Source: an uncultured Desulfovibrionaceae bacterium (GTDB taxonomy: Bacteria; Desulfobacterota; Desulfovibrionia; Desulfovibrionales; Desulfovibrionaceae). From it: a DNA stretch of 40,460 nt. The position numbers and the translations under genes are program-made. This document shows positions 21,721 through 27,015 of the stretch, piece after piece; position 1 is the stretch's first letter; each line of letters begins with the position of its first letter. The stretch covers positions 1 to 40,460 of the forward strand of contig CALUUT010000079.1 in assembly GCA_944324045.1 (NCBI GenBank). Reading direction: 5' to 3'. The notes beneath the pieces are model-generated. The model had not been told where the DNA came from and did no database searches. It worked only from the letters and a program-made list of their open reading frames with translations.

Positions 21721-22995
21721 ATGAGCCTGAATGACTACCTTTTACGCCTTGGCAAAAACGCCAAACAGGCGTCGCGTCTCATGCGGGAGGCAAACGCTGA
21801 AAAAAAGAACCGCGCTCTGCGCATTCTTGCGGAGAGCCTGGAAAAAGAAAAAGAAGCCATTTTCAGCGCAAACGCGCAGGATATCGCCGCCGCGCGGCAG
21901 AATGGCCTTGACCAGGCAAAATTGAACAGATTGACCCTGACCCCGGAGATCATACATGAGATGGCGGCCGCATGCCGGCATGTCGCAGACATGCCTGACC
22001 CCATTGGGGCCCTTGACGCGCAGTGGCAGCAGCCAAACGGCATTCTTGTAGGCCGCATGCGCGTGCCTCTCGGCGTCATCGCCATGATTTTCGAATCCAG
22101 ACCCAATGTGGTCATCGACGCTTCAATTCTGTGCCTTAAGGCCGGCAATGCCGTTATCCTGCGCGGCGGCTCCGAAGCGCACCACTCAAACCAGCGCCTT
22201 GCTGCGCTGACGCATCAGGCCCTGGAAGCCGCGGGACTGCCCGCCGAAGCCGCTCAGGTGGTCAATGTCACAGACAGAGAAGCCGTGCGCGGCCTGTGCA
22301 AACTCAATAAATACATCGACGTCATCATTCCCCGCGGCGGCCCAAACCTCATCCGTCTGGTTTCCGAAGAGGCGACCATGCCGGTTCTGAAACACGACAA
22401 AGGCGTGTGTCATCTGTATGTTGACAAGGATGCGGACCTTGATATGGCCCTCAATTTGACCTTCAACAGCAAAGTGCAACGCCCGGCGACATGCAACAGC
22501 CTGGAATGCCTTCTTGTCCATGCGGATATAGCGTCCCGTTTTCTCCCCATGGTCGGGGAAAAACTTGGAAAGTCAGGCGTCATATTCAAGGCATGTCCCG
22601 CCGCCGCCGCTTTTTTGAAAGATCATGCGCCAAACGCGCAGATTCAGGACATGCAGCCGGAAGACTTCGGCAAGGAATATCTTTCCCTTATTCTGGCTGT
22701 GAACATCGTCCATGACATGGATGAGGCAATCGCCTATATCGACGAGTTCGGTTCAAATCATACTGAAGTCATATGCACCAATAATTATTCCCATGCCATG
22801 GACTTTCTGCGGCGCGTGGATGCGTCCATGGTCGCTGTGAACGCTTCCGTAAGACTGAATGACGGCGGCCAGCTTGGGCTTGGCGCGGAAATAGGGATCA
22901 GCACGACAAAACTTCATGCATACGGCCCCATGGGAATCAAGGAACTCACTACGACAAAATTCACCGTCATGGGAACAGGGCAGATACGTTGCTGA
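21721..22995 (+). CDS. proA: Glutamate-5-semialdehyde dehydrogenase (gamma-glutamyl phosphate reductase)
   Basis: A 424-residue NADPH-dependent reductase of the second step of proline synthesis, converting gamma-glutamyl phosphate to glutamate semialdehyde. Landmarks are MIFESRPNVVIDASILCLKAGN, the catalytic Cys258 in RPATCNSLECLL, and the C-terminal VNASVRLNDGGQLGLGAEIGIST. GGGAG lies upstream of the ATG. nadD starts one base after the stop, so the pair is co-transcribed. The partner kinase gene proB is not in the window. Confidence 0.96.
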   Translation: MSLNDYLLRLGKNAKQASRLMREANAEKKNRALRILAESLEKEKEAIFSANAQDIAAARQNGLDQAKLNRLTLTPEIIHEMAAACRHVADMPDPIGALDAQWQQPNGILVGRMRVPLGVIAMIFESRPNVVIDASILCLKAGNAVILRGGSEAHHSNQRLAALTHQALEAAGLPAEAAQVVNVTDREAVRGLCKLNKYIDVIIPRGGPNLIRLVSEEATMPVLKHDKGVCHLYVDKDADLDMALNLTFNSKVQRPATCNSLECLLVHADIASRFLPMVGEKLGKSGVIFKACPAAAAFLKDHAPNAQIQDMQPEDFGKEYLSLILAVNIVHDMDEAIAYIDEFGSNHTEVICTNNYSHAMDFLRRVDASMVAVNASVRLNDGGQLGLGAEIGISTTKLHAYGPMGIKELTTTKFTVMGTGQIRC

Positions 22996-22996
22996 T

Positions 22997-23701
22997 ATGA
23001 TTCCGTTACGCTACACGCAATGCACAGGCATAGCCATAATCGGCGGCACATTTAATCCGGTGCATATCGGTCATCTGCGCCTGGCGCTTGAAGTTTCTGA
23101 AGCCCTGGCGGGCGTCCGCACCGAACTGGTGCCCTGCGCCGTGCCGCCGCACAAAGAAAAAAAAGGCGTACTGCCCTTCAAACTTCGGCATGCCATGCTG
23201 CGCGCCTCCATAGAAAACCTGCCGAACATTTTTGTTAATGATCTTGAAGGAAAACGGGCGGGACCTTCATTTACCTATGATACGCTTGCGGCATATAATG
23301 AAGCGCTTCACGGAAAAAAGGAGAATATTTTCTTTTGCCTGGGGCTTGGGGATTTCATGCTGCTCAATACGTGGCATAAAGGGCTGGAACTTCCCGACTT
23401 GGCACAGCTCGTCATTATCCCACGCGGCCGGGAAAAACTGGAAGACTTCGCCCACACTGTCCGGTCCTTCTGGCCTGAAAGCAAAGAATGTCCCGGGGAG
23501 ACGCCTTTCACAAAGACGTGTCTTCTGCGAGATGGGAAAAAAGTCCATGCGCTTTCTTTGCCCCGTTTGGAACTGAGTTCGTCATTTATACGATCCCGCT
23601 GGAGAAGCGGACGAAATCTGGCTTTTTTAATGCCGGATCAGGCATTGCGCTTGCTTTATCAGCATAAAGATATTGTAATGCGTCACTGGAACAGCGAGTA
23701 G
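22997..23701 (+). CDS. nadD: Nicotinate-nucleotide adenylyltransferase
   Basis: A 234-residue nucleotidyltransferase that makes nicotinate adenine dinucleotide in NAD synthesis. The ATP-binding GGTFNPVHIGHLRLALE is at about residues 16-32, and PHKEKKGVLPFKLRHAML follows. The C-terminal SSSFIRSRWRSGRNLAFLMPDQ matches the S-x-x-x-I-R phosphate-binding block. The frame is open into proA, but the ATG at 22997, one base after the proA stop, begins the conserved region. It is translationally close to proA and followed 62 bases later by a TPR gene. Confidence 0.94.
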   Translation: MIPLRYTQCTGIAIIGGTFNPVHIGHLRLALEVSEALAGVRTELVPCAVPPHKEKKGVLPFKLRHAMLRASIENLPNIFVNDLEGKRAGPSFTYDTLAAYNEALHGKKENIFFCLGLGDFMLLNTWHKGLELPDLAQLVIIPRGREKLEDFAHTVRSFWPESKECPGETPFTKTCLLRDGKKVHALSLPRLELSSSFIRSRWRSGRNLAFLMPDQALRLLYQHKDIVMRHWNSE

Positions 23702-23763: not shown

Positions 23764-24594
23764 ATGCCCCCCCAGGCCGCTGCCCCACGAACCATAAAAG
23801 AAAATTTGGCGCGAGCCAAAGCCTACCTCAGACGCGACGAGTGCATCCGCTCTTTGGAAGCCGCCAAGACTGCAATTGATGCGTACATACCCTGCCTTCC
23901 CCGTCTTACCAGAGAAAACAGATTCAGTATTGAAGTCTTGATACTCGAATATGTGCGCGATCTCAACAAGCACCCCCATATCAGAAATGTTTTTCTATCG
24001 CGGAAAATAACAAAAGAACCCTTTATCGTTTTTGCCAGAGGCAAGGAAAACGCCTTGTCGTTGCTTCTTGAGGCGCTTCGGCAAACTCTGGAAAATGAAC
24101 GCGACAAGGAGGCAAAGCGAAAACAGGAGGAAGAAAAAAAACGAAAGGAAACTTTGCTGGCGACAGGGCAAAAGCTGCTTGACAATGGAGAATTTCCGCG
24201 CGGAAAAGCCGTGCTCAGACGTTATATGGAAGAATGCGGCAATGCGCCGGATGCTGTCCTGGATGTGGGGGAAAGGCTGCTCAAGGCGCAACTTTATATG
24301 GAAGCCGCCGATGTATTTGAAAAATCCATCGAGCTGTATCCCACTAACGTAAAAGGATATGCCGGGGCGCTCAAAGCGTATACAGAGATGAACGACTACG
24401 ACAACACGGAAAAAACATATATACGCACACTGCGGCAATTTGGAGCGCATCCGCGCACCCTGCTGAATATGGCCAAATTTTATTTACGGCACGGCAAAAA
24501 AGAAAAAGCATACGAGTTTGCTCTGCGCGCGTTGGACAAGGATCCCGCTCTTGCCGAAGCCAAAGAAATTGTGGAAACGGTCTACAGCCATTGA
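23764..24594 (+). CDS. Tetratricopeptide-repeat protein of unknown function
   Basis: A 276-residue soluble protein with no signal peptide. The N-terminal about 110 residues contain PRTIKENLARAKAYLRRDECIRSLEAAK, a TPR-like pair, and then a sequence with no family I recognise. A highly charged Lys/Glu/Arg coiled coil follows (about 115-135, EKRKQEEEKKRKE-like). Three or four TPR motifs reach to the end, such as AADVFEKSIELYPTN and KAYEFALRALDKDPALAEA. TPRs are protein-binding scaffolds. Seven consecutive C residues (23767-23773) lie directly after the start codon. It follows nadD by 62 bases and may share its transcript. No function should be assigned. Confidence 0.8.
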   Translation: MPPQAAAPRTIKENLARAKAYLRRDECIRSLEAAKTAIDAYIPCLPRLTRENRFSIEVLILEYVRDLNKHPHIRNVFLSRKITKEPFIVFARGKENALSLLLEALRQTLENERDKEAKRKQEEEKKRKETLLATGQKLLDNGEFPRGKAVLRRYMEECGNAPDAVLDVGERLLKAQLYMEAADVFEKSIELYPTNVKGYAGALKAYTEMNDYDNTEKTYIRTLRQFGAHPRTLLNMAKFYLRHGKKEKAYEFALRALDKDPALAEAKEIVETVYSH

Positions 24595-24807
24595 GCATAT
24601 CTCCAAATTAGGACAAAAATATAGCCATTTGCAACTATGCAATCAATTCCTTTTCTTCGTATACAGTCTCTCTTCATTAAACAAAAATTTGTCAGATATG
24701 CTTCATAGCGTAAATATATTTTTATTTTAAAATTATACTGTTCGACAACATGCAAATATTTTTTTTACATAGATTCAGTGCACATATTTTTCATCGTCCA
24801 CATATGC

Positions 24808-24835
24808 TTGACAAAATTTATATATCTCATAATAT
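24808..24835 (+). promoter_or_regulatory. Candidate promoter of the small Cys-rich protein gene
   Basis: TTGACA (24808-24813) is a perfect -35 box. TAATAT (24830-24835) at 16-base spacing is a 4/6 -10 match. The expected start point (about 24842) lies just before the palindrome at 24865-24880. Confidence 0.5.
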
Positions 24836-24864
24836 CAAATATTGTTATAATATGTGAAGCGTAA

Positions 24865-24880
24865 TCATCATAGATGATGA
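24865..24880. promoter_or_regulatory. Operator-like palindrome downstream of the promoter
   Basis: TCATCAT-AG-ATGATGA is a perfect inverted repeat with 7-base arms, placed about 25 bases after the predicted transcription start. The position suits repression by a dimeric regulator. The regulator is unknown. Confidence 0.4.
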
Positions 24881-24969
24881 AATCAGGGCCGTCATACAAA
24901 TATCAACCGCAAAATGTATAATCAAAATAGCCCGCCAGCCAGTTAAAACAAAAAACGGGAGTTGCTGCT

Positions 24970-25257
24970 ATGAAACGTATCCTTTTGAGTATGGGTTTTT
25001 GTATTTGCGTATTTCTGAGTACAGCGGCTTTTGCCCAAACAGAACAAGCTGCTCCGTCCACTGCCAATGCGGCGACGCCGTCTGATACGGCGGCCGTTTC
25101 CCAAAAAGCGTATTCAGGAAACAAACGGAATCATATTTTTCATAAATTGGGGTGCAGATACTACAACTGCAAAACCTGTACGGAACGGTTCGACACGCCT
25201 CAGGAGGCTCAGGCCGCCGGCTACATTCCATGTAAAATATGCATGAAAGCATCATAA
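24970..25257 (+). CDS. Small secreted Cys/His-rich protein with Ada-like metal-binding motif
   Basis: A 95-residue protein with a signal peptide (hydrophobic residues about 4-22, cleavage near AFA-QTE) and a low-complexity Ala/Thr/Ser linker to about 45. The compact domain has NHIFHKLGC, five Cys (62, 67, 70, 88, 91) and AAGYIPCKICMK. The pattern H-x-x-x-C ... AAGY-x-PC-x-x-C resembles the Zn-binding module of Ada and of the C-terminal tails of some secreted nucleases, here with an additional C-x4-C-x2-C cluster. GGGAG lies upstream of the ATG. It stands alone with its own promoter, palindrome and terminator. A periplasmic or extracellular metal-binding or thiol role is possible; function unknown. 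Confidence 0.82.
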   Translation: MKRILLSMGFCICVFLSTAAFAQTEQAAPSTANAATPSDTAAVSQKAYSGNKRNHIFHKLGCRYYNCKTCTERFDTPQEAQAAGYIPCKICMKAS

Positions 25258-25322
25258 GGCAAACGTCTTGACGGCGTTTATCCGTTTAAAGTTAAACCTC
25301 ATATTGTAATGACTTAATGACA

Positions 25323-25358
25323 AAGGCCGGGCAAATATATTTTGCCCGGCCTTCTTTT
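25323..25358. terminator. Bidirectional intrinsic terminator
   Basis: aaggccgggcaaa (25323-25335) and tttgcccggcctt (25341-25353) form a perfect 13-bp stem with a 5-base loop, followed by cttttat on the plus strand. It ends the small secreted protein gene and the converging ddh gene. Confidence 0.88.
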
Positions 25359-25411
25359 ATGAAAATACGCAAAGTAAGAGGTTGCCCGCTATGAAATGGT
25401 GCGACGTGATT

Positions 25412-26335
25412 TTACACCAGTCTTGCAATATGAGTTTCGCGCTCGCCGGGCAACAGCTTCACGACGGGAACATCGATAAGCGTATAGCATCCGGGAGCAA
25501 GCCTCGTTGCGGCGCGGGCGCACGAAACCAAAACCTGCGCCGTCAGCGCGGGGTTGTTGATACGCATGTCGAAACTCAGACGCTGATTGCTTGTCAACCC
25601 TGAAGCGCCTATGCGCTCCATCAGAACCCCATGCGAATGGTCCGCTGTAAGCGCAAGCTCCATCTCGCTTTTTACTTCCCGAACTTCCAAATCGTCGTGG
25701 GCAAAATACTCATCCGCCTTTATTCTTGCGCGCACCTCATCAAACCGTTCCCCTTCTTCAAGCAGAACATACACCAACCGGGAATGACGTCCGCCTCCGA
25801 CAGGTATGGTTATCGAAGTCGCGTCTTTGACGCCCTGAATGGCGCGAGCGGCGACCGAGTGCCCCATGGAACGGCCTCTTCCAAAATTGGTGAAGGTCGT
25901 ACCGCTGGGCGCCATTGCCTCAAAAAGGGCGCGCAATACGGAATCCGTTCCAGGGTCCCAGCCTGCGGCTGTAATGGAAACAGCGCTGTTTTTTGCGGCG
26001 GTTTCTCCAAGTTTCCGCACCAAAGCGGGAATTTCCGTATGAATGTCAAAACTGTCAACCGTATTGAACCCTTGCTCCAATAATGACGGAACATCCGCCG
26101 GCACATTTCTGGAAGGACCGCATACGATAACGGCATCCGGTTTCCCGACGGCGGCGACAAGGCTGTCCATGTCAGGAAAGTCGGGCAATCCGCGCAAATC
26201 AAAGGGACGCGTGCCCAGGGATTCCCGACGGCGCACAACGCCCAAGCACCGGCAATCAGGCGCAGCCTCAGCCGCTTCGATTGCATACCGGCCAATATTG
26301 CCAAGACCATAAACCGCAACGGTAAACTCTTTCAT
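25412..26335 (-). CDS. ddh: meso-Diaminopimelate D-dehydrogenase, type II
   Basis: A 307-residue NADP-dependent dehydrogenase. The Rossmann block is YGLGNIGRYAIEAAEAAPD (about 8-26). VDSFDIHTEIPAL, ITAAGWDPGTDS, FTNFGRGRSMGHSVA and MRINNPALTAQVLVS follow and match closely the shorter type II enzyme known from Symbiobacterium thermophilum, rather than the longer Corynebacterium type I. The enzyme reversibly aminates tetrahydrodipicolinate to meso-DAP, a one-step route to peptidoglycan and lysine precursor. The ATG at 26335 has AAGGA 7 bases upstream; a TTG codon precedes it. It stands alone between a terminator and a hairpin-rich gap. Type II enzymes can also act on some D-amino acids, so the physiological direction is unproven. 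Confidence 0.9.
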   Translation of the reverse strand: MKEFTVAVYGLGNIGRYAIEAAEAAPDCRCLGVVRRRESLGTRPFDLRGLPDFPDMDSLVAAVGKPDAVIVCGPSRNVPADVPSLLEQGFNTVDSFDIHTEIPALVRKLGETAAKNSAVSITAAGWDPGTDSVLRALFEAMAPSGTTFTNFGRGRSMGHSVAARAIQGVKDATSITIPVGGGRHSRLVYVLLEEGERFDEVRARIKADEYFAHDDLEVREVKSEMELALTADHSHGVLMERIGASGLTSNQRLSFDMRINNPALTAQVLVSCARAATRLAPGCYTLIDVPVVKLLPGERETHIARLV

Positions 26336-27015
26336 CAAAAATTCCTTTATGGTTTGAAACCGCCCCCTTCAGGGGGAAAAGATCTGTCGACAAAACGGCG
26401 AAGCCAATGAAATCCTTTTCCACAACCCCGCCCAAAAGGCGGGGGCACTCCGCACGTCCCCCCATCCGCCGGCTGCAAAGCCAGCCGACGGATGGGACGC
26501 CTACGGATTGCAACATAATGTTTCCTGATGCTATAAGAATCCTGTCATCCCCCCGCTTTTCCCGGGGGGCTTTTGGCAGCGGCAAGGACAGGCCGGCCGC
26601 AAGAGGGACTGCCGCCGCAACAAAACTTCTGCAGGGCGCATATCCAAATTGCCGCCGCAAGCATTCCTGCAATGGAGAAACGGCGCTGGCGCGAACGGAT
26701 GCGGCGCGCGACGCTTTTTACCGCATACATCTGCGACGGCATACCCTCAGCAAAAAACGCCTCGTGAAAAGCCCTATATCGTGTGCTCGCGCCGCTGTCC
26801 AGCCTTGCCGGAAAGGAAACATCCTTGATTCATATGGCGTCTTTGCTCATGGAATGCCGCGAGACGGCCGCATGTTGTTTTTTGTAGCGCGGCTTTTGAG
26901 TGCATTTTTTTGCACATAACAACGAGCAGAAACGGCTGCATTGCATATGACAGCGCATCGCATATGCATGGCGATTGCAAAAGCGCACACCCTTCTTGCC
27001 GCCTGGAGACGGCAT
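26336..27015. repeat. 680-base intergenic region with a cluster of GC-rich hairpins
   Basis: Four stem-loops lie in the first 235 bases. They are cccccttcaggggg (26363-26376), ccccgcc-caaaa-ggcgggg (26426-26444), a 15-bp stem with one mismatch (26461-26475 with 26482-26496), and ccccccg-cttttcc-cggggggg-like (26549-26569). None has a good T-run. From about 26600 to 27015 the sequence has open frames on both strands but none with a recognisable domain, plausible ribosome site or typical composition. I see no gene here. It could be REP-like repeats or a structured leader for ddh, which starts just to the left on the minus strand. Confidence 0.45.

Follow-up and report, generated by a model that had tools for sequence, protein, structure and literature searches.

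The DNA analysed here, called the window throughout, is a stretch of 40,460 nucleotides from an uncultured Desulfovibrionaceae bacterium, whose gene content resembles that of a sulfate-reducing deltaproteobacterium. It contains an isolated gene for a small protein rich in cysteine and histidine, and the question is what kind of protein this is and what it might do. A first-pass annotation, made from the letters alone, had described it as a secreted orphan with its own promoter, terminator and operator-like palindrome, and had proposed a function in metal or thiol sensing.

The open reading frame comprises positions 24970–25257 of the plus strand and codes for 95 residues. A GGGAG (24957–24961, plus strand), read from the sequence as ribosome-binding-site-like, lies eight bases 5' of the ATG. 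Judged by eye, the N-terminus has a basic start, a hydrophobic stretch and a cleavage-like site AFA/Q. A low-complexity linker of Ala, Pro and Thr connects this signal-like start with a compact C-terminal domain (residues ~48–91) of the Ada metal-binding type, which contains C62, C67, C70, C88 and C91 as well as H55 and H58. The annotated layout is present in the sequence: a signal peptide (by eye), a linker and a domain with five Cys and two His, including the C-x4-C-x2-C cluster (C62-x4-C67-x2-C70). The gene also stands alone as claimed, since the upstream gene ends at 24594 and the downstream gene (25412–26338) is on the opposite strand. The gene and its domain are real.

Sites resembling a promoter and a terminator were found on either side of the frame. 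A TTGACA/TAATAT pair with a spacer of 16 bases (24808–24835, plus strand) contains the perfect -35 box that had been reported, and with this best partner matches the consensus in 10 of 12 positions. A perfect TATAAT with a TG one base 5' of it (24846–24851, plus strand) is an extended -10 alternative; both are consensus matches only. The reported terminator corresponds to a terminator-like hairpin of 13 pairs, 8 of them G-C (25323–25353, plus strand). Note that the region 24300–25900 contains seven promoter-like sites versus 2.9 (sd 1.7) in shuffles, and three terminator-like sites versus 1.9 (sd 1.3).

Residues 40–91 match PF02805 (Metal binding domain of Ada, Ada_Zn_binding) with a marginal 23.1 bits at a cut-off of 23, and no other Pfam domain was found in the protein. 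At E 0.001, the gene is the single PF02805 match in the whole genome of 2,547,486 bases. For comparison within the bacterial family, 41 loci were used, namely the window together with 40 further places out of 114, taken chiefly for their high score and a contig of sufficient length; 39 of these loci match PF02805 at E 0.01 or better. Searched with phmmer against the PDB sequences, the single protein gave no match below E 0.41. A profile built from the protein plus 14 relatives placed four entries of the Ada N-terminal domain (N-Ada) first, with E-values from 2.3e-6 (1adn) to 5.7e-6, followed by ribosomal protein L4 with 8.8e-5. Matches to PHROG families had E-values of 0.035 or worse only.

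In the structure model computed from 10 sequences, block-mean pLDDT values are 89–95 over residues 51–90 and 50–60 over the first 40 residues; for the whole protein the mean pLDDT is 74.1 and the pTM 0.49. Fold comparison yielded 1u8b (Z 5.1, 51 residues aligned, 2.6 Å), 1zgw (Z 4.9) and 1wpk (Z 3.7) and no others, these Z values being modest for a domain of 45 residues, and the tool cautions that a Z below 8 may reflect merely a common arrangement. N-Ada entries are the only fold matches with a probability above 0.06 or a Z of at least 2; the Foldseek probabilities are 0.72–0.98, with weak E-values of 0.17–0.46. The Ada N-terminal domain (1adn, 1u8b, 1zgw, 1wpk) is thus the best match in both profile and fold searches. 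Judged by profile and predicted fold, the protein is a free-standing copy of the Ada N-terminal type of fold, exported if its start is read correctly by eye. In contrast to Ada, it is secreted-looking, has only 95 residues and contains no further Pfam domain. It is a real, conserved protein, ordinary in kind, and its Pfam family is already established. The literature searched yielded no study on an HCCC version of this fold that is secreted and stands alone.

The four cysteines of Ada bind zinc. Ada takes over the methyl group of methylated phosphotriesters onto a cysteine of its own and so repairs them (PMC6818145), and it becomes active as a transcription factor once Cys38 is methylated (PMC10957082). 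When the proteins are aligned by profile, H58 (codon at 25141–25143), C62 (25153–25155), C88 and C91 (C88-x2-C91, 25231–25242; all plus strand) fall on positions 38, 42, 69 and 72 of the 1adn chain. These four are invariant in the 41 family loci, together with G50, N51, A80 and G84. Another 66 frames with the domain, a non-random sample of the phylum beyond the family, were also inspected (6 from loci of profile A2, 20 picked for varied frame length and the next 40 by rank); there, the His and the first Cys never vary, and the last two Cys hardly do. The aligned residues constitute an HCCC set that is a candidate metal site. Three of the four metal-site cysteines of Ada are thus kept, whereas a His replaces Cys38: in the alignment, His occupies this position in the window protein, in 41 of 41 family loci and in 66 of 66 phylum frames. 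The protein should therefore not perform the methyl-transfer reaction of Ada, and its domain is probably a metal site without the chemistry of Ada.

The remaining two cysteines behave differently. The pair C67-x2-C70 (25168–25179, plus strand) is complete in 33 of the 41 family loci and entirely missing in eight; a single Cys does not occur. Strict all-or-none coupling of the pair was considered and discarded, because it holds for the family loci but three proteins of the wider set have a single Cys. In this wider set, the pair is missing in a branch whose loop between C62 and C88 is two residues longer; note that the classes were assigned there by a regular expression that put at least two rows in the wrong place and overlooked four, and that the family figure was counted separately. 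In the sequences compared, the four-residue core is constant and C67/C70 is optional. The annotated Cys pattern consequently survives for H58, C62, C88 and C91, invariant in 41 loci, and fails for the extra pair, absent in eight of them. The Ada-like character that had been read from it is borne out by PF02805 above its cut-off, by the profile and fold searches and by the conserved core.

A second domain model, the sunset domain (NCBIfam NF051437), matches residues 50–87 of the window protein with E 6.7e-5, but its score of 22.8 bits (23.3 by genome search) stays below the cut-off of 27. A close relative from a viral contig (L116), which has all five cysteines of the domain, exceeds this cut-off with 31.8 bits. 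Four Firmicutes relatives (L004–L007), which in contrast to the window protein lack Cys, pass the model strongly with 46 to 55 bits; among them, L004 is above both the PF02805 and the NF051437 cut-offs and L007 passes NF051437 with PF02805 below its cut-off. Because L116 and L004 span the two models, the PF02805-like and sunset domains grade into each other, and the cysteines may disappear entirely. The name "metal binding" of PF02805 accordingly covers members without metal residues such as the Cys-free L004. According to NCBIfam, the sunset domain occurs in variants of the ribosomal proteins L4, L17, L20 and S2. The uL4 tail of C. acnes was not visible as density when the ribosome was mapped (PMC10085706).

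At E 0.001, relatives of the protein are patchily distributed over 80 of 288 family genomes and 16 of 44 genera. With profile A2 and the same threshold, 191 of 395 sampled genomes of the phylum match, a number that may include other PF02805 proteins. The C. acnes ribosome mentioned above, we assume, is PDB entry 8crx. In many proteins the domain is fused to a partner. The commonest one at E 0.01 is the SNase domain PF00565, which is found in 35 of the 66 phylum frames and in 3 of the 41 family loci; in nearly all of these fusions, with L163 as an exception, the Ada-type domain comes last. Such fused SNases share with the window protein the domain and in many cases the extra Cys pair, whereas in the window the domain is a gene of its own. 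Two plasmid-encoded matches are annotated as thermonuclease family protein. LptF/LptG was found in 6 of the 66 frames, an SRP54-type GTPase in 2 and TPR repeats in 1 (all at E 0.01). In the Firmicutes, the Cys-free domain of L007 is preceded by a DNA/RNA non-specific endonuclease (E 5.8e-29) that is unrelated to SNase, and in L004 the partner is a copper amine oxidase N-terminal domain. ArfC is a further partner; like LptF/LptG, the GTPase, TPR and the copper amine oxidase domain, it is no nucleic-acid enzyme.

Does the genome of the window possess a nuclease to which the domain could belong? SNase as such is near-ubiquitous (258 of 288 family genomes), which makes its co-occurrence with the domain uninformative. 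The sole SNase match of the genome at E 0.001 lies on contig C89 (14828–15121, L190). The protein is secreted-looking and ends with PPWQWRRRKR at the place where fused proteins run on into the linker and the domain. Its best BLAST matches among the SNases fetched are mostly domain-fused. In a tree of 62 SNases, it belongs to a group of 28 rows (support 99/99) together with 19 fused and 8 domain-free enzymes, its own branch being long and its placement flagged as unsure. The fused and solo labels were assigned by a regular expression: L140, which lies outside the clade, is labelled solo though the domain was found in it, L156 inside the clade was set to fused by hand, and L204 was dropped for unknown residues. 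The 8 domain-free members come from genomes without a domain match at E 0.001, not among the 80, which indicates that the nuclease can do without the domain. It is possible, judging from these sequences, that nuclease and domain have been split into separate genes in the genome of the window. The tail-less SNase is a natural candidate partner of the 95-residue protein. Under a crude gene model, no shared neighbours tie the stand-alone gene to a nuclease near the 40 relatives, and no neighbour of the window recurs there either (nadD at 22916–23701 left out). No Ada-type domain lies in the flanks of the conserved upstream TPR gene at 29 related loci.

The regulatory part of the original proposal was built on the palindrome TCATCAT-AG-ATGATGA (24865–24880, no strand assigned), which had been read as an operator. 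Its exact spelling is rare, 0.06 copies with at most two mismatches being expected in the window. When the intergenic stretch (30% G+C) is shuffled, 7.4% of the shuffles contain some perfect 7-base inverted repeat with a loop of 2, and 36.6% contain one with any loop of 0–8; as the palindrome was chosen after being seen, it is not clearly above chance. Among the 40 relatives, none has a copy within two mismatches between 500 bases 5' of the first start codon of the frame and the domain. The best match per relative has 3 mismatches in 6 cases, 4 in 10, 5 in 18, 6 in 5 and 7 in 1. Six of 40 loci with at most three mismatches exceeds the ~1.2% per locus observed for single-base shuffles, a control that disregards codon and word structure. 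The positions of these six sites differ widely, between 440 bases before and 283 bases after the first start, and two of the loci (L065 and L066) are near-identical. Only that of L077 is placed like the one of the window (87 versus 105 bases before the start). A regulon, for which the genome was to be searched, did not emerge either: within one mismatch there are seven sites including that of the window, and the other six, one of them perfect, all lie inside stop-to-stop frames of 264 to 815 codons. We conclude that the palindrome is probably accidental. The relatives are distant (36–52% identical in the best 30 matches) and the genus is represented by one genome, so that a recently gained or fast-changing operator is still conceivable. 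The first-pass annotation had staked its proposal on conservation of the Cys pattern and on recurrence of the palindrome upstream of related genes; the core Cys pattern is conserved, and the palindrome is absent upstream of these distant relatives. An RNA element comprising the palindrome or the leader was rejected as well. No Rfam family reached its gathering score; L20_leader, whose match covers the gene end and the terminator, scored 27.0 versus 58.7. The leader folds no more stably than shuffles (z +1.58).

Our preferred reading, to which we assign a probability of about 0.45, is that the gene codes for an exported, metal-held and non-catalytic binding module of the Ada fold, which plausibly grips nucleic acid and is supplied apart from the nuclease. 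The protein would be exported to the periplasm or the outside, as its sequence suggests by eye, and H58, C62, C88 and C91 would together bind a single ion, zinc or a similar one, by which the small fold is held in shape; C67 and C70 may form a disulfide or a second site in one branch. The domain would serve as a binding module that is sometimes attached to a nuclease and here separate, and the protein may assist the unlinked nuclease of the genome or act alone. Nucleic acid is the first-choice ligand because two unrelated nuclease families bear the tail and because sunset variants exist in the ribosomal proteins L4, L17, L20 and S2. A role confined to nucleic acid is hard to reconcile with LptF, the GTPase, ArfC and the copper amine oxidase domain, and the missing density of the C. 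acnes uL4 tail also counts against the reading. The reading would explain an orphan Cys-rich gene by a known fold and suggest a role for a widespread tail. If this tail grips nucleic acid, it would show by what means exported nucleases keep hold of their substrate and in what way the repair chemistry of the Ada fold was lost. A bolder version is distinctly improbable in our estimate: that the Ada fold, with a His ligand in place of Cys38, was recruited outside the cytoplasm to grip nucleic acid for exported nucleases of two or more unrelated kinds, and that two unlinked genes cooperate here in the periplasm.

The same partners can be read differently. SNase, LptF/LptG, the SRP54-type GTPase, TPR and, in Firmicutes, the copper amine oxidase domain and the endonuclease have only the tail in common, as would be expected of a metal- or disulfide-held module for anchoring or protein-protein contacts that keeps exported and membrane proteins at the envelope and to which the stand-alone copy docks. 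However, nucleases dominate the partners (SNase in 35 of 66), and a secreted copy that stands alone comes with no attached protein that it could anchor; we regard such an anchor as rather unlikely, with some weight left to it. The proposed sensing belongs to a group of functions, including a periplasmic metal buffer and a metallochaperone, in which labile cysteines would bind metal or react with thiols, with matching induction of the gene. A secreted-looking, Cys-rich protein with promoter- and terminator-like sites of its own would suit it, as would the additional C-x2-C that 33 of 41 family loci possess. Yet this pair is dispensable, no operator is conserved within two mismatches, no regulon was found, and the crude gene model gave no recurrent window neighbour near the 40 relatives. 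That the domain is often a mere tail of other proteins fits a structural module better than a sensor. No finding favours sensing over a metal site with a structural role, and where the domain is fused, the partner is most often a nuclease; a sensor or buffer is in our view unlikely.

The patchy distribution described above would also suit an envelope effector borne by a phage or mobile element, similar to a moron and retained after integration. Relatives are encoded at five loci in viral contigs, among them L118, where the gene for a phage integrase (PF00589, E 1.8e-22) lies ~1.4 kb upstream. However, viral contigs of this kind can hold host genes, no match was found among 50,697 phage records at E 0.01, and the surroundings in the window resemble, by eye, an ordinary chromosome. 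We consider this origin very unlikely. The binding module, metal-held and exported, remains the reading that we prefer.

Several relatives deserve mention in their own right. Two contigs of the viral collection encode secreted-looking relatives (L115, 2521–3141; L118, 2512–2814), the former amid frames that appear phage-like by eye. The LptF/LptG-family permeases with an Ada-type C-terminal tail are L133, which was scanned individually, and L134, L135, L168, L169 and L175. The SRP54-type GTPases that end in the domain, L148 and L188, are presumably FlhF-like, and the domain is probably used there in the cytoplasm. The SNase tail of L215 resembles the Ada-type domain by eye and has lost the core Cys pattern. 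One relative (L125 / L070) is a secreted-looking protein in which the domain occurs twice in tandem, the extra Cys pair being absent from the second copy.
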